A stretch of DNA of 64,000 nt from Sphingobacteriales bacterium (lineage in GTDB: Bacteria; Bacteroidota; Bacteroidia; Chitinophagales; Chitinophagaceae), in contig JACRLZ010000003.1 in the NCBI GenBank assembly GCA_016235125.1, forward strand, positions 1 through 64,000, read 5' to 3'. The position numbers were made by a program, and so were the translations under genes. Shown one piece after another: positions 21,170 through 27,820 of this stretch. Every line of letters begins with the position of its first letter. Position 1 is the stretch's first letter. A model generated the notes under the pieces. That model searched no databases and was not told where the DNA came from. It saw only the letters and a program-made list of their open reading frames with translations.

Positions 21170-21925
21170 ATGGCATTTTTTAAATCAAGTAACCCGACAT
21201 TACAGGAAAAGTCGTTCCAGGGAACAGTACTGGAAGGCATCAGCACCGGTCAGGAAATGACGGTAAAAGGAACCATGAATAAATTTGGTTTCTTAATGTT
21301 GATGGTAATCGGAGGTACATTATTCTCCTGGGATCAATTCAATAAAGGCAGCAACCCTATGACATTAATGATGGTTGGCGTTTGGGGTGGCCTCGCATTG
21401 GCGATTGTTATGGCATTCAAAAAACAATGGTCGCCTTACCTGTCTCCTGCATATGCAATACTGGAAGGTCTTTTTGTAGGATCTATTTCTGCTTATTATG
21501 ATTATGTATATCCGGGTCTTCCGTTGCAAGCCGTGGCGCTTACACTACTGGTGACTTTAATTATGTTTTTGGTTTATCGCTATCGCATCATTAAAGTAAC
21601 CAATAAGCTCAGAACAGTGGTTGTAGTAGCTACGATGGCCATTGGTATTTTTTATCTGCTTCAATGGATTACATATTCTTTTGGAGGTTCAGCTATCGGG
21701 TATTCACTCACTAATTCTACTTCGCCTATCAGCATTGGTTTTTCCATACTGGTCACCGGTCTTGCTGCATTTAACCTGCTACTGAATTTTGATACCGTTG
21801 AAAAAGGAGTTGAAATGAGGGCCGCCAAATACATGGAATGGTATTGTGCTTTTGGTTTATTGGTAACTATTGTATGGCTGTATCTGGAAATACTTCGCTT
21901 GCTCTCTAAGTTTCAGCGGAATTAA
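21170..21925 (+). CDS. Bax inhibitor-1 / YccA family membrane protein
   Basis: 251 residues with about seven membrane helices after a 40-residue soluble start. KGTMNKFGFLMLMVIGGTLFSW, SPAYAILEGLFVGSISAYY and AFNLLLNFDTVEKGVEMRAAKYMEWYCAFGLLVTIVWLYLEILRLL are typical of the long YccA-like subgroup. The conserved Asp in NFDTVE is the proton/Ca-sensing region of the TMBIM fold. Bacterial members may leak Ca2+/H+; the role here is unknown. A strong terminator follows. Confidence 0.9.
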   Translation: MAFFKSSNPTLQEKSFQGTVLEGISTGQEMTVKGTMNKFGFLMLMVIGGTLFSWDQFNKGSNPMTLMMVGVWGGLALAIVMAFKKQWSPYLSPAYAILEGLFVGSISAYYDYVYPGLPLQAVALTLLVTLIMFLVYRYRIIKVTNKLRTVVVVATMAIGIFYLLQWITYSFGGSAIGYSLTNSTSPISIGFSILVTGLAAFNLLLNFDTVEKGVEMRAAKYMEWYCAFGLLVTIVWLYLEILRLLSKFQRN

Positions 21926-22149: not shown

Positions 22150-25100
22150 TTACTGGTTTCGCCAGCCAGGCACATATTTATCCAGCAGATCCTGAAACCC
22201 TTTCAGGTTTTTCAGGCTGCTTAAATCGGGATCAGTAAGTAATGCTTCTGTGTTTTTATATCCTCTTTGATAAGCCTGGTTAAGATAAAGTATGGCTTGG
22301 TCAGATTGATTGCTCATGGCATAGCTGCAAGCCAGCTCAAAATATACTTTTCCTTTCCCGGGATCTTTGCGAATTGCCTTTTGAATATAGACGATGGCCG
22401 AATCATATTTCAAAGCAGCATGATAAGCGAGACCCAGCCCATGTAATGCAGAATAGGAATTGGAATCCAGTTGCACCGCTTTCTTCAGGTAAACAATGGC
22501 CGAATCAGTCATTTCAAGAGATAAGAATGCATTACCGGTACGGGCATAAGGCGCTGCATAATCCGGCTTCACCCTCATTACCTGTTTGTAATAGGCAATG
22601 GCTGAATCATACACTTTGATATCTGTAAAGAAATTGCCGATATTCTGGAATGCTTCCGCTTCAGGTACATCGGGGCGAAGAATGATCTTCTTGTAATAAT
22701 AAGCGGCTGAATCAAGTTTTTTCAGCTGCTTAAATACTCCGGAAAGATTCTGGGCAAATACAGGATTATTCGGCATCATCCGCATGGCTCTTTGCATATA
22801 TGTTTTTGCAGAATCGTATTGCTTCATTCCCTGAAGTACCAATCCCATATTATTAAACCATTGGGGATTGTTTGGCTCTTTCGTAATGGCCCGCCGCATA
22901 TATATCCGTGCCGAGTCAAATCTTTTCTGTTCAAAGAATGTCATCCCCATATCGTTCATAAATGACGGGCTGTTGGGATCAAACAGAGATGTACCTTTTA
23001 TAAAATTAGTGATTGAATCAAGCTGATTTAATTCTCTGAAAATAAGCATCAGGTTTTTGGAGGCGGGTTTGTAATCCGGTTTTACAAATAATGCTTTTCG
23101 GAAATATTGTTTAGCCGAATCATAATTCTTGTCCTGCCCATACACCACTCCAAGGCTGTTGAGAATGGAGGGATTTCCTGGTTCAAGTCTCACTGCCTGC
23201 TGGAAATAGAAATAAGTGGAATCGGGAATTTTCATTTCTTTAAACACCATTCCAATATTGATCAGGGCAAAAGCAGAATATGGATTGGCCACCAGTGCTC
23301 TCCGGTAATAATAATTAGCAGAATCCAACTGCTTTAACGCAAAACTTGAACGACCAAGATTGTTATAGGCTTCTTCATAATTGGGATCAAGCTGTGCAGC
23401 CATGCGGTAATAAACTTTTGCTGAGTCATAAGCTTTCAGATCCCTGTAAAAATTGCCGATATAGTTATTTACAATTGATTTGTCCTGGTAATTGGCAAAT
23501 GCTTTTGAATAGTATATTCTTGCCGAATCATATTCTTCCATTTCAAAAAAGGTCTTGCTGATACCATTGTAGGCGTTGATAAATTTCGGGTCGGCGTCAA
23601 TGGCCCTTTTGAAATAGACTATCGATCTTTCATAATCTTTCCTGTCGTGATAGAGCCAGCCAAGATTATTACTTGCATACACATTACGGGCATTTATCTT
23701 CAGTGCTTTTTCATAATAAACAATGGCAGAATCACCTTTCCCAAGCGAGTAGTAGTAATGACCGAGGTCAACCCAGGCATCGGCATTTTCAGGATCCAGT
23801 TCAACAGACTTACCATAATATTTTATAGCTGAGTCGGGTCTGTTGAGTGTCTTGTAACAAAATGCCAGTGTAACATACGGGTATCGCCATTTTGGAGCAG
23901 CTACTATCGCCTTACCTGCATAAAAAATTGCGCTGTCATACCGGTTATTATCGAGGTGCAGGTTTGAAAGTGTATTCAGGATATAAGCAGCATTCTTATC
24001 TGCTGCATAAGCAGTATAGGCATATTCAAATGCTTTATTGATGTCAACAGTTCTTCTGTTTCTTCCAAAATATCCTCTTGCCTTAAAAAAATACATCCGT
24101 CCCATCAGGGATTTGGCAAAGTCAGGATCATCTTCTTTAATAATGTTGATTGCCTTTTCAAGCATATTTCCCACTTCATAAAATTCCTGCTGGGCCACTT
24201 TTTCCATTCTGTCGAGGCTGCTGGTTACTTCATCCATCTTTTCATCTTCATCAATCTGAGCCCTCAGTTTCTGAACTGATGATGCGTCTTTGCAATCGAG
24301 GTACAGGTTAATTTTACTCTGGGCAAAATTGATGAACTCTACTGCCAGTGTTGACTGTGCATCTATGGTATACGAATTGCCAGGAAAATTGCGGGCCATA
24401 ATATCATAATAATATTCAGCAGATTCCCTGCCAATAAGACGGCTATCTTTTACCGCCTGGTTAAAATAATTATAGGCTTCGATCAGCAAGGTATCAGCAG
24501 TAAATCCAAGTCCCCTTCCGCGGGGTGAAACGGCAGCCGTGCCTGCATTCTTAGATTGCAGTTGTTTTAATTCAATCCACTTTTTTAAATACACGGTATC
24601 AACAATACTCACAATCTTGCTGCTGTTATCATTGCAGCAGAAAAAAGGGTCCTGCTTTCTTTTGAATCGTTGCTGTGCAATAGCAGGTACATTTTTATCT
24701 ACATATTTCTGTATCTCGTCGAGGGTAATTTTATTATCTGCTGAACCTTCTTTATCCGCTTCCCCCGTCAATCCATCAACTAAGTAGTAAGTAAATAAGC
24801 CATGCCCTGCTCCGATAGTGGCATCTTCGAGTGATTCCTGTCCTGCCCCGGTAGCCAGCATAATGATCTCGCCTGCTCTTTTTTCTGAAATGGCAGAGTT
24901 CAGAAAATTCTGTCCTTCCGAACCACCCGGTAATTCACTGGTGCGGCAGGCATCCATTATAAAATAGACCTCCACTCCTTTTGCTGTTTCAGATGCTATT
25001 TTTTTCTTCAAATTGAATAGCTGTATGGCGCCACCCACCAGGTAATTATTTTTATCGCCGGCCGGATTACAGTCATAAGCCAGGTAAAAAAACTGGTCTT

Positions 25101-25479
25101 CATCAATAGCATCACCGTGCCCTGCCAGGTAGATAAAAAGCCGGTCCCCCTGCTGAAGTTTTTTGACTTTCAACCATTGAAATCCTTTTGAATAAAAATT
25201 GGCAAGAGTGGCCTGTTCATTCAGGAGGCAGTATATATTATCATCAGGCAATTTGCCTCCGCCGGGTGACTTCAGGAAATCCCTGAACATTTCAGCATCC
25301 TTGTCAGCGTAAGTCAATGGTCTTACAAATTTGTAATTGGAAATGCCCATGATCATAGCAAAGGTCTGGGGCCCTGCGATGGTTGAATCCCTTGGTTTAG
25401 GCGGCGCCTGTCCATAAATGGATTGACCAGTGACCGCAAATAAAACGCAGCCAAGAATTATGGAAAGGTTTTTTGGCAT
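22150..25479 (-). CDS. Secreted caspase-fold (C14) protease with long TPR array
   Basis: 1109 residues. A signal peptide (about 1-23, ending SIYGQA) implies export. Residues about 40-260 form the caspase p20-like domain: AMIMGISNYKFV, DRLFIYLAGHGD with catalytic His121, and VYFIMDACRTS with catalytic Cys178; both catalytic residues are intact. A linker (about 300-430) leads to well over a dozen TPR units of the form YDSA..YY.KA up to residue ~1090. TPR arrays usually bind partner proteins. The gene is divergent from the CHASE2 and FecR-like genes with a 144-base gap, which suggests a shared role. No peptide target can be deduced. Confidence 0.9.
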   Translation of the reverse strand: MPKNLSIILGCVLFAVTGQSIYGQAPPKPRDSTIAGPQTFAMIMGISNYKFVRPLTYADKDAEMFRDFLKSPGGGKLPDDNIYCLLNEQATLANFYSKGFQWLKVKKLQQGDRLFIYLAGHGDAIDEDQFFYLAYDCNPAGDKNNYLVGGAIQLFNLKKKIASETAKGVEVYFIMDACRTSELPGGSEGQNFLNSAISEKRAGEIIMLATGAGQESLEDATIGAGHGLFTYYLVDGLTGEADKEGSADNKITLDEIQKYVDKNVPAIAQQRFKRKQDPFFCCNDNSSKIVSIVDTVYLKKWIELKQLQSKNAGTAAVSPRGRGLGFTADTLLIEAYNYFNQAVKDSRLIGRESAEYYYDIMARNFPGNSYTIDAQSTLAVEFINFAQSKINLYLDCKDASSVQKLRAQIDEDEKMDEVTSSLDRMEKVAQQEFYEVGNMLEKAINIIKEDDPDFAKSLMGRMYFFKARGYFGRNRRTVDINKAFEYAYTAYAADKNAAYILNTLSNLHLDNNRYDSAIFYAGKAIVAAPKWRYPYVTLAFCYKTLNRPDSAIKYYGKSVELDPENADAWVDLGHYYYSLGKGDSAIVYYEKALKINARNVYASNNLGWLYHDRKDYERSIVYFKRAIDADPKFINAYNGISKTFFEMEEYDSARIYYSKAFANYQDKSIVNNYIGNFYRDLKAYDSAKVYYRMAAQLDPNYEEAYNNLGRSSFALKQLDSANYYYRRALVANPYSAFALINIGMVFKEMKIPDSTYFYFQQAVRLEPGNPSILNSLGVVYGQDKNYDSAKQYFRKALFVKPDYKPASKNLMLIFRELNQLDSITNFIKGTSLFDPNSPSFMNDMGMTFFEQKRFDSARIYMRRAITKEPNNPQWFNNMGLVLQGMKQYDSAKTYMQRAMRMMPNNPVFAQNLSGVFKQLKKLDSAAYYYKKIILRPDVPEAEAFQNIGNFFTDIKVYDSAIAYYKQVMRVKPDYAAPYARTGNAFLSLEMTDSAIVYLKKAVQLDSNSYSALHGLGLAYHAALKYDSAIVYIQKAIRKDPGKGKVYFELACSYAMSNQSDQAILYLNQAYQRGYKNTEALLTDPDLSSLKNLKGFQDLLDKYVPGWRNQ

Positions 25480-25623
25480 AATTTCGACCGACTAATTTAC
25501 GGATTTACAGGGGAATGTCAGCTACTACTTACAGGTAAAAATCAGCATTGGCTAAAGCCATGTTGCGTTAAAGAGCTGAATGGTTGCAGCCCAACAGATG
25601 TTTATCAAATCATTAAAAAGTTT

Positions 25624-26895
25624 ATGAGCCATAACCACGAAAGCGAACAAGCACCTCAAAAAAGAAAAGGCTTCAAACACCATGCAAAAAAAGTGCATGG
25701 GCGGGTTACCAAATACCTTACAGAAAGGGATACAATTCTGGCAACTATCTGGGTGTTTGTATTCATAATAGCATTAGGCTCCATTCCACTGAACCTCGGG
25801 ATCATGAATCCGGTAAAGCTGGGTTTGAAAGACTTTGATTTCAATGATATTACTTATTCCAAACTGGGGAAGGGAGAAAGAACACCGGTTGACAGCAATA
25901 TTGTTATAGTCAATATCGGATATGCCAACCGGGAAGAGCTGGCTATGATGATTGATGCAGTTGGTGCCATGAACCCAAAAGTAATGGCCCTTGATGCACT
26001 TTTTTATGGTCCGAGGGATCCGCACCAGGACTCTTTATTAAGCGAAACATTCAGAAAATATAAAAACCTGATTGTAGCAAGAAGACTCGAGTTGCATGGT
26101 AAGGAAGGTGATACAGTATCCTTTGCAGGAGATTATTTCAATACCGCTTCACAATATGCACATGTTAATCTTTTCACTGATTCAATATCAAGTGTACGTT
26201 CATTCGAACCTTTTTTTGAAGACTATTCGCATAAAAGATACCCTTTTTTTGCAACAGCCATCGTCAAGGCATTTGATTCTGCTGCCTACAAAAAACTGGA
26301 GAATTACGGAACCAAGAAAGTGATCATTAATTATACCCGGCATGTTGGCCGATACCTGTTACTTCAGTTTGAGGATATAATTGCCGGAAATATTGAAGAA
26401 AAAGCAATCGGAGGTAAAATAGTCCTTTTGGGATTTGTAGATAATAACAGGGACAACCTCGAGGATAAATTTTTTACTCCTATGAATGAAAGGTTTGCAG
26501 GCAAATCCATTCCGGACATGAGTGGTATTGTTATCCACGCCAATATTATTTCCATGGCACTTGCAAAAGATTATATTAAAAAAGTACCTTTATGGGGCAA
26601 TTTACTGCTGGCCATCCTGGTATGCTGGATACATATGTCATTTTTTATCCATTATTACCTTGAAAGCCATATATGGTTTCACCTTGCGGCAAAAATTGCA
26701 CAAGTTCTTTCTGCCATCCTTTTTGTGTGGTTAGGCATCTATTTGTACGACAGGTATCGTCTGAAAGTGGATATGAAGCTTAGCATTGTGGTAATTGTTA
26801 TGGCTGTTGACGTAATTTATTTTTATGAGGCATGGGCTGTGTGGATGCATAAAAAATTTAATTTCAGAACTGTTTTCAAACCTCATCACCATTAA
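25624..26895 (+). CDS. CHASE2-domain membrane sensor without output domain
   Basis: 423 residues. A His/Lys-rich cytoplasmic N-terminus (about 1-35) precedes TM1 (about 38-58). The extracytoplasmic CHASE2 domain runs about 65-320: DITYSKLG, NIVIVNIGYANREELAMMI, PKVMALDALFYGPRD, GGKIVLLGFVD, and MSGIVIHANIIS. Three further helices follow (about 323-345, 355-375, 383-403), then a short tail ending HHH. CHASE2 domains sense unknown ligands and normally feed kinases or cyclases; none is attached here. It is in an operon with the FecR-like gene (28-base gap) and divergent from the caspase-TPR gene. Confidence 0.9.
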   Translation: MSHNHESEQAPQKRKGFKHHAKKVHGRVTKYLTERDTILATIWVFVFIIALGSIPLNLGIMNPVKLGLKDFDFNDITYSKLGKGERTPVDSNIVIVNIGYANREELAMMIDAVGAMNPKVMALDALFYGPRDPHQDSLLSETFRKYKNLIVARRLELHGKEGDTVSFAGDYFNTASQYAHVNLFTDSISSVRSFEPFFEDYSHKRYPFFATAIVKAFDSAAYKKLENYGTKKVIINYTRHVGRYLLLQFEDIIAGNIEEKAIGGKIVLLGFVDNNRDNLEDKFFTPMNERFAGKSIPDMSGIVIHANIISMALAKDYIKKVPLWGNLLLAILVCWIHMSFFIHYYLESHIWFHLAAKIAQVLSAILFVWLGIYLYDRYRLKVDMKLSIVVIVMAVDVIYFYEAWAVWMHKKFNFRTVFKPHHH

Positions 26896-26923
26896 TAACT
26901 ATTTGATATTAACCTTAAACAAA

Positions 26924-27820
26924 ATGAAAAAATTGAAATTCTTTATCCCCTTACTGGTCTTTGCAGCAACTGCCGGAGCACAAAGCGATTTTCTCCTTTA
27001 TAGTCTTAAAGGAAATGTATCCGTGGTAGAAAATGGAGTTGAAACTAAAGCCAAAATCGGCAAAATGCTTAACAGCGCAGCCACACTTAAGATTGCAACC
27101 GGAGGTACAGCCACGCTGATTTGTAATGAATCAGCTATGTTTACTATTTCAAAGGCTGGCAATTATCCTCTTAGCAAGTTTGGCGACTCCTGCAAAGTAA
27201 CCGGAGGCTCTGTCAGCGCCAATTATGTAAAATATGTCTGGGCTTCTATGACCAAATCGTCCGGCACACCCGGCAGCAACAGAAAAGCATTCATGAATAC
27301 AGTGGGTGCTGTAAGCAGATCAATCAATAACGTCTGGATTGACCCAAGACTTGATACTGTGAACTATTCCGGCGGTGATTTTCCGCTTTCATGGAAATCA
27401 TATGCTGATGCAAAAGAATTTGAGTTCCTGCTCTACAACAATGATAATATCACTGAACCGGCTTATAAAACAACCGTCACAAAGCTTAAAATACCTATCC
27501 CGGACATATGCAAGCTAATGTCAGCAGGAAAAAGTTATTACTGGACTGCTGCTGTAAAAGGAGAAGAAAATGATGAGCTGAAAGTGTTGAATTTTGTAAG
27601 CAAGGAAAGCTTTGAAAAAACACTTGCAGGTTTCAAATCTTTCGGCGCACCCGGAGAAACCCCGGCGCAACAGGCTTACCGTGTGGCTTTCATGCTGGAA
27701 GATGCCCATTACCTTTCTGAAGCCTACCAGCATTACAGTAAAGCGGCTACACTGGACTCATCAAATGTTTTGTACCGTTCTACCCTGATGTCATTTAAAA
27801 AAGATTATGAAATAAAATAA
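26924..27820 (+). CDS. FecR-like exported protein
   Basis: 298 residues from the ATG at 26924 (MKKLKFFIPLLVFAATAGAQ), which gives a clear signal peptide; the longer frame before it was rejected. Residues about 22-100 (YSLKGNVSVVENGVETKAKIGKMLN, LKIATGGTATLI) look like the beta-sandwich FecR domain. The middle resembles an Ig-like strand region (FPLSWKSYADAKEFEFLLYN), and the end (YRVAFMLEDAHYLSEAYQHYSKAATLDSSN) looks like one TPR unit. Probably periplasmic. It is cotranscribed with CHASE2. Function unknown; context suggests it belongs to a signalling or stress module with the caspase-TPR protein. Confidence 0.75.
   Translation: MKKLKFFIPLLVFAATAGAQSDFLLYSLKGNVSVVENGVETKAKIGKMLNSAATLKIATGGTATLICNESAMFTISKAGNYPLSKFGDSCKVTGGSVSANYVKYVWASMTKSSGTPGSNRKAFMNTVGAVSRSINNVWIDPRLDTVNYSGGDFPLSWKSYADAKEFEFLLYNNDNITEPAYKTTVTKLKIPIPDICKLMSAGKSYYWTAAVKGEENDELKVLNFVSKESFEKTLAGFKSFGAPGETPAQQAYRVAFMLEDAHYLSEAYQHYSKAATLDSSNVLYRSTLMSFKKDYEIK

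Follow-up and report, generated by a model that had tools for sequence, protein, structure and literature searches.

CHASE2 sensor domains are widespread, and for most bacterial caspase-type proteases no regulator is known. Combinations of CHASE2 with an exported or a caspase-type partner are already in print as single cases, namely CHASE2 with a FecR-type protein (PMC5192318), CHASE2 with DUF928 (PMC5587647), mtxA with CHASE2 (PMC4439547) and a metacaspase-CHASE2 protein (PMC3501461, PMC2853523), as far as the passages on them in these sources go. The mtxA gene of magnetotactic bacteria precedes one that encodes a CHASE2 domain with adenylate cyclase similarity, and the passage on its deletion reports no phenotype under standard conditions (PMC4439547). 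The case with DUF928 is one CHASE2-DUF928-WD40 cluster of Nostoc, according to the passage that describes it (PMC5587647). Here we analysed a stretch of 64,000 nucleotides from a Sphingobacteriales bacterium (GCA_016235125.1, contig JACRLZ010000003.1, positions 1-64,000, forward strand; the window), in which a gene for a caspase-TPR protein is divergent from a gene for a CHASE2 membrane protein and a gene for an exported FecR-like protein related to DUF928.

The gene linkage, the intact active-site residues, the domain make-up and the DUF928 homology of the partner are direct observations. On this basis we give even chances to the proposal that the three genes work together as a functional module that controls proteolysis in the envelope. 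In the open-access literature searched, no description of such a three-gene module was found among the matches listed; the same holds for the joining of the genes into one module, the DUF928 kinship of the Bacteroidota partner, the pairing of an exported caspase with a CHASE2 that lacks an output domain, and the replacement of one protease family by another.

The caspase gene is linked to a CHASE2/FecR-like gene pair

An earlier note on this DNA had claimed three genes with the caspase divergent from CHASE2, and all of them are present. The caspase-TPR protein (1109 aa, with a signal-like N-terminus) is encoded at 22150..25479 on the minus strand, as supported by the open reading frame (ORF), Pfam and orthologues. 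An intergenic gap of 144 bp (25480..25623, unstranded) separates it from the gene of the CHASE2 membrane protein, which has 423 aa and lacks an output domain (25624..26895, plus strand). The FecR-like/DUF928-like exported protein (298 aa) is encoded at 26924..27820 on the plus strand, based on the ORF, an alignment of relatives and a model. Its start had been placed at 26825, which is too early; the likeliest start is 26924, corresponding to Met34 of the listed ORF and located 28 bp downstream of CHASE2, and therefore the gene does not overlap CHASE2.

In a family sample of 147 genomes of Chitinophagaceae, we found CHASE2 in 11. The FecR-like gene was present in nine, always directly downstream of CHASE2, and a caspase of at least 55% identity was divergent beside CHASE2 in eight. 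Two close caspase paralogues sit elsewhere, in genomes that also hold the linked copy. Furthermore, a contig scan with the CHASE2 alignment gave 66 named Bacteroidota loci, nine of which were shared with the family search. The genes of CHASE2 and the FecR/DUF928-like protein are hardly ever found apart, the latter accompanying the former in 62 of the 66 loci (with another CHASE2 gene in between in L128 and L132). Loci without the FecR-like gene are L124, L126 and L139; L119 ends at the contig edge and is not evaluable. Two tandem FecR/DUF928-like genes follow CHASE2 in L076 (11362-13165), and likewise in L130 and L133.

The window's clade comprises the 52 loci nearest to the window (L074-L125), from which 49 are evaluable, as L079, L091 and L124 have less than 300 bp upstream. 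A C14 gene is located within 10 kb of CHASE2 in 45 of these 49 loci. In 36 of the 45 it is divergent and adjacent to CHASE2. Three loci (L114, L120 and L123) have it immediately upstream in the same orientation, and in L121 a single small ORF intervenes. In L112, L115, L118 and L122 it is no more than 3 kb off, and in L111 the distance is 2.9 kb. A C14-labelled fragment of 138 aa in L121, which lacks both columns of the catalytic dyad, was excluded from the caspase count there. As a background we used 25 chosen genomes, 17 mostly without and eight with a linked caspase. We counted 109 C14 genes in ~114 Mb, with 67 in the ~35 Mb of the eight caspase-rich genomes and no C14 gene at all in six of the 25. 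From this density, ~2% would be expected within 10 kb of any gene, and ~4% in the eight caspase-rich genomes. The caspase-CHASE2 link is not accidental. It had been suggested that the link would be accidental if CHASE2-only genes were rarely found near the caspase, and in the window's clade they are near it in nearly all evaluable loci.

To place the linked caspases we used a C14 tree of 124 domains, made with a quick method and with long branches flagged; rows under 140-150 aa, L032-L035 and the duplicates L054-L058 and L060-L063 were omitted, while the paralogue locus L056 was kept. The divergent caspases form one clade, together with three close copies from elsewhere in the genomes. The other linked C14 genes are found in separate, mostly well supported clades alongside unlinked ones, and therefore different C14 lineages came to adjoin the CHASE2/FecR pair. 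The unlinked label needs 14 changes on this tree, at least 11 of them forced by supported branches; L137 is mislabelled as unlinked and may add one change. In addition, pairwise distances between CHASE2, the FecR-like protein and the caspase were correlated at 0.79-0.90 over 20 loci, with the highest value (0.90) for the FecR-like protein and the TPR array, compared to 0.04-0.36 for the same distances with the flanking RlmH, TilS and rhomboid proteins (20 loci). This correlation is consistent with coupling.

The caspase carries an intact dyad and the CHASE2 protein no output domain

The caspase fold, the intact His121/Cys178 and the long TPR tail that had been read from the sequence were all recovered. 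Pfam Peptidase_C14 matches residues 40-286 (24622..25362, minus strand) with E=3.5e-14 and 53.5 bits, compared to a cut-off of 21.4. His121 (25117-25119, minus strand) is located in AGHGD and Cys178 (24946-24948, minus strand) in DACR. Pfam TPR families cover an array of ~600 residues, which in the translation extends from about residue 500 to 1105 (22165..23982, minus strand; limits approximate). The dyad is invariant across nine aligned caspase relatives. Moreover, among 59 aligned C14 domains of L074-L139, His is present in 57/57 and Cys in 55/55 rows in which the column is filled; the four gapped rows are three contig-cut genes and one fragment. By its profile and dyad the caspase belongs to peptidase family C14, and proteolytic activity is predicted. 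A phmmer search of the caspase domain against the PDB gave no match at E 0.1. Judged by eye, the N-termini of both the caspase and the FecR-like protein resemble Sec signal peptides, and in both Gln would be the first residue after a plausible cut (also by eye), which agrees with the Bacteroidetes Q-rule for exported proteins (PMC5837995).

The CHASE2 protein matches Pfam CHASE2 (25927..26625, plus strand) with E=3.2e-23 and 83.1 bits (cut-off 26.3). As had been claimed, it is without an output domain: CHASE2 is the sole family found in the 423 aa, with no second Pfam family at E 0.01 and no kinase, cyclase or other output domain among the matches. In the structure model (pLDDT 88, pTM 0.86), helices at 35-52, 323-347, 349-378 and 385-412 fit one plus three membrane passes. 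Among solved structures, we found no relatives by sequence and nothing below E 0.07 with Foldseek, the best Z being 5.5. Shorter CHASE2-like proteins of ~250 aa with 30-33% identity to that of the window are encoded in L068 (8179-8937) and L069 (8444-9187). Their length leaves no room for the three C-terminal membrane helices, and their N-termini are lipoprotein- or signal-like.

The C-terminal part of the FecR-like protein is related to DUF928

The model of the FecR-like protein was based on an alignment of 66 relatives and reached a pLDDT of 86 and a pTM of 0.57, and therefore the arrangement of the domains is less sure than the domains themselves. It consists of an N-terminal beta domain (residues 22-90; 26987..27193, plus strand), helices, an Fn3-like domain (~140-225) and TPR-like helices. 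The beta domain, which is the FecR-like part, matches the fold of 5ix9 (Z 10.3, 74 aligned, rmsd 2.6, model residues 19-94). Pfam assigned no family to the window protein, and Pfam FecR is not among the 25 of 44 families listed for the 66 relatives. FecR as a family name is not supported by Pfam, which gives the window protein no match; the beta domain is visible in the model only. The TPR-like end that the earlier note had described for the FecR-like exported protein was recovered in the model.

The DUF928 profile (PF06051) did not match the window protein itself in Pfam; matches were obtained in five of the 66 relatives at E up to 1, the best being 0.021. When the FecR-like protein was aligned with 12 cyanobacterial DUF928 proteins by hhalign, a score of 49.0 was found (prob 91.8%, 164 columns), compared to no more than 16.3 when the columns were shuffled (60 shuffles) and 11.3 for the reversed control. 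Without the TPR end the score was 41.1, and the N-terminal beta domain did not match DUF928 (14.2). A G-A-x-x-R stretch including the invariant Gly128 and Arg132 is common to FecR-like and DUF928 proteins. As negative controls, the C-terminal profile was compared to the CHASE2 alignment, giving no match (14.0), and to the caspase alignment, giving a TPR match (41.6, 31 columns) because both proteins hold TPRs. On these profile comparisons, the C-terminal part of the window protein is related to cyanobacterial DUF928, with Fn3-like and TPR-like parts. This DUF928-like part covers residues 126-298 (27299..27817, plus strand), with the motif G-A-V-x-R, the Fn3-like domain and the TPR-like helices. 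With a second aligner, residues 137-298 of the model matched the MtxA fold (Z 10.6, 145 aligned, rmsd 5.1).

Other proteases are found beside the pair

In all three loci of Maribacter-type Flavobacteriaceae (L127, L131 and L135), a papain-family Peptidase_C1 protein of 481-493 aa is encoded one small gene away from CHASE2. These proteins have a signal-like N-terminus and Cys, His and Asn motifs, judged by eye. Their genes lie upstream of a CHASE2-FecR-CHASE2 array (L127, 7955-9400; L131, 8032-9477; L135, 7582-9063), and in all three proteins DUF4384 trails Peptidase_C1, above the curated cut-off in L127 and L131 and just under it in L135. DUF4384 was also found, below the cut-off, on the C14 proteins of L062/L115 and L114. 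A trypsin-PDZ protein is also encoded in L112, where its gene separates the caspase from CHASE2, in L062/L115 next to CHASE2, and in L138 at a distance of two genes from CHASE2.

Around a single CHASE2-FecR pair, L062 (3192-16143) holds three C14 architectures (with a TPR tail, with a C-terminal caspase and with a DUF4384-like tail) together with trypsin-PDZ. Two M16 protease genes in L057, and at least one in L059, separate the FecR-like gene from RlmH. In most Cytophagales loci no protease was recognised beside the pair, most neighbours being unscanned. CHAT was present in 15 of 17 genomes, which were mostly picked for having no caspase beside CHASE2. With a local CHAT profile built from two sequences, it was found within 10 kb of CHASE2 only in L123 among the 66 loci.

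The locus is flanked by a Bax-inhibitor-like gene on one side and by rlmH, rhomboid and tilS on the other. The gene at 21170-21925, which is convergent with the caspase gene, encodes a Bax-inhibitor-1-like membrane protein. We considered it as a partner of the caspase and rejected it; it is the next gene in just four of 26 evaluable loci, and therefore this neighbourhood is probably a coincidence. We also compared the locus to PADLOC. The caspase fits the generic caspase model (E 3.6e-10, residues 37-202) and TPR models, the best E values being 1.6e-10 and 3.6e-10, while the CHASE2, FecR-like, rhomboid and Bax-inhibitor-like proteins had no match at E 0.01. A known anti-phage defence system was rejected, as the caspase fits generic caspase/TPR models only and the PADLOC system partners are not present.

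Cyanobacterial plasmids hold CHASE2-DUF928-CHAT loci

Cyanobacterial loci joining CHASE2, FecR-like and CHAT proteins had been mentioned in the earlier note. Searching plasmid records for CHASE2, we found a Pseudanabaena plasmid with the order ShlB-CHASE2-haemagglutinin-CHAT-DUF928. A DUF928 search gave 21 plasmid records; 12 were examined, including the Pseudanabaena plasmid, and these were chosen mostly as annotated. CHASE2 was found within 10 kb of DUF928 in 11 of the 12 loci (the miss being L144), compared to an expectation of ~9% from 14 CHASE2 genes in the ~3.1 Mb of these records. The CHASE2 copy of L145 is broken by stops, and that of L149 is part of a TIR protein. CHAT was present in 10 of the 12 loci, as a separate protein in nine and only fused in L147, and was missing from L143 and L149. 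The existence of such loci with CHASE2 and CHAT is thus confirmed, but the partner is a DUF928 protein.

Among nine cyanobacterial CHASE2 proteins scanned, CHAT is fused at the N-terminal side in five, a kinase is present in two and an AAA domain in one, and the ninth holds no further domain. TPRs were found in all eight separate CHAT proteins that were scanned, as in the window caspase. In an alignment of nine separate CHAT proteins, including the Bacteroidota protein of L063, and five fused ones, His and Cys are present in 14/14. Sigma-70 factor and DUF1822 genes lie beside CHASE2, DUF928 and CHAT in L142 (2882-8056) and, with the broken CHASE2, in L145 (5023-7837), which suggests a transcriptional arm in these two loci. 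On the Kovacikia plasmid of L149 (5603-9648), the TIR-domain protein with its CHASE2 domain is encoded divergent from the DUF928 gene.

A possible module for regulated proteolysis in the envelope

For a module of the three proteins, we infer contact, activation and substrate as follows. CHASE2 would sit in the inner membrane, its sensor domain facing the periplasm, and could assemble with the FecR/DUF928-like protein into a periplasmic receptor complex. The protease may be brought to this complex by its own TPR array and the TPR-like end of the FecR/DUF928-like protein. A ligand or the state of the envelope would alter the complex and switch the protease on, probably via local concentration or release from inhibition. 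As this CHASE2 is without a kinase or cyclase, the output would be the cleavage of a substrate in the envelope.

More generally, CHASE2 and a FecR/DUF928-type protein might be an old receptor platform with an exchangeable exported cysteine protease and a proteolytic response in the envelope, a view for which we see the odds as evenly balanced. It would extend over Bacteroidota and Cyanobacteria from the loci described here, and to Proteobacteria via the published MtxA and BiofilmReg cases, as far as their descriptions go. The exchangeable protease would be C14 in Chitinophagaceae and relatives, C1 in Maribacter-type Flavobacteriaceae and CHAT in Cyanobacteria, and the receptor of Bacteroidota would work without any cytoplasmic output domain.

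Several observations weigh against a module with the caspase. The expected link across genomes holds in the window's clade but not in the distant loci (L126-L139), in 12 of 14 of which no C14 gene was found, some contigs being short; there it was seen only in two Spirosoma loci. Within the window's clade, L100, L104, L109 and L116 are without a C14 gene, with 2.2-2.4 kb of upstream sequence examined in L100 and L104 and 3.7 kb in L116. L104 and L109 are from Pedobacter, and L100 and L116 are close relatives of the window locus. In the genomes of L100 and L116 we found five C14 genes, all of them outside the divergent clade, and therefore both seem to do without the caspase, as far as the assemblies go. 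The pair thus does not need the caspase and may have its own output. In 32 of 48 evaluable loci, RlmH is no more than four genes away from the FecR-like gene, and part of the linkage, on the FecR side, is therefore vertical inheritance. The distance test is weakened by the control genes RlmH, TilS and rhomboid, which intercorrelate at most at 0.20; as they are uncorrelated with each other, the correlation is not proof of contact, and we dropped it as such. The cyanobacterial records contain many CHAT domains (32 matches in 3.1 Mb, including pieces), which gives an expectation of ~20% near any gene, and one locus (L141) was found through CHASE2 itself. Finally, the fusions of Cyanobacteria and of Trichodesmium (PMC3501461, PMC2853523) place the caspase-clan domain before CHASE2, where it should be cytoplasmic, unlike here.

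The loci without a nearby C14 gene also favour a different view, in which the caspase cleaves CHASE2 or the FecR-like protein and the pair is a substrate that signals inward via the three C-terminal helices and a conserved tail. The last membrane-type helix of CHASE2 contains a conserved YFYE stretch with Y401 invariant among 40 sequences, and eight of the nine cyanobacterial CHASE2 proteins scanned have a further fused domain, both in line with an inward signal. We consider this unlikely. Cleavage cannot be the general step because many loci are without a linked protease, and no cytoplasmic partner stood out in the Bacteroidota gene orders, where most neighbours are unannotated.

The module could also mature or release surface proteins, with an adhesin or another exported client being processed by the exported protease. 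In six of the 12 cyanobacterial loci the annotation includes ShlB/FhaC-type or filamentous haemagglutinin genes, and the M16 protease genes of L057 and L059 would fit as well. Beside the Bacteroidota loci, with most neighbours unannotated, no adhesin or secretion gene stood out, and such a role appears rather improbable to us.

That the caspase is a mere neighbour, sharing a regulatory region and a conserved chromosomal position with a separate CHASE2-FecR system, would account for the proximity of RlmH and for the four loci of the window's clade that do without a caspase. However, pairs of this kind are linked to C14 caspases from several lineages, to a papain-family protease and, in Cyanobacteria, to CHAT, and five of the nine cyanobacterial CHASE2 proteins scanned are fused to CHAT. 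Moreover, the gene on the far side of the caspase corresponds to the Bax-inhibitor gene of the window or to its neighbour in only five of 26 evaluable (full-length) loci, so the caspase-side flanks vary while the caspase-CHASE2 junction is kept in 36 loci. We therefore hold this explanation to be decidedly improbable. A role in suicide or anti-phage defence, with a lethal caspase set off by the receptor, is highly improbable: caspase-type proteases are named among bacterial conflict effectors in the relevant passage of PMC8195603 and the caspase fits the generic PADLOC model, but its signal-like N-terminus predicts an action outside the cytoplasm, PADLOC has no match for either partner, and the locus lies beside rlmH in most evaluable loci.

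If the three genes do form a module for regulated proteolysis, its recurrence would give CHASE2 and caspase-type proteases a concrete connection through one defined partner, and sensing in the envelope would lead to proteolysis without a kinase, cyclase or sigma factor. DUF928 would gain a proposed role, and the trio suggests a little-studied way of switching on envelope proteases.

Comparison with known systems

The MtxA system resembles the locus of the window in an exported partner with an Ig/Fn3-like and TPR fold that is encoded beside a CHASE2 gene. It differs in the cyclase output of its CHASE2, and no protease is mentioned in the passages on it (PMC4439547). Likewise, the BiofilmReg operon of Burkholderia encodes an exported protein with a FecR domain together with a CHASE2 membrane sensor (PMC5192318). 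Its exported protein is of the LysM-FecR type, the output consists of a histidine kinase and a response regulator, and the passages on the operon describe no protease (PMC5192318). The Trichodesmium metacaspase-CHASE2 fusion links a caspase domain to CHASE2, with one helix before and three after CHASE2, as here; in contrast to the three separate genes of the window, it is a single polypeptide with a protease predicted to be cytoplasmic, and no DUF928 partner is described in the parts of the sources that treat it (PMC3501461, PMC2853523). The cyanobacterial loci differ in that their protease is CHAT and not C14 and that eight of nine CHASE2 proteins carry a kinase, CHAT or AAA part, and several contain sigma-factor, DUF1822 or two-partner-secretion genes. 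They share with the window a CHASE2 gene near DUF928 and a TPR-bearing caspase-clan protease, CHAT, with some N-termini that are signal-like by eye.

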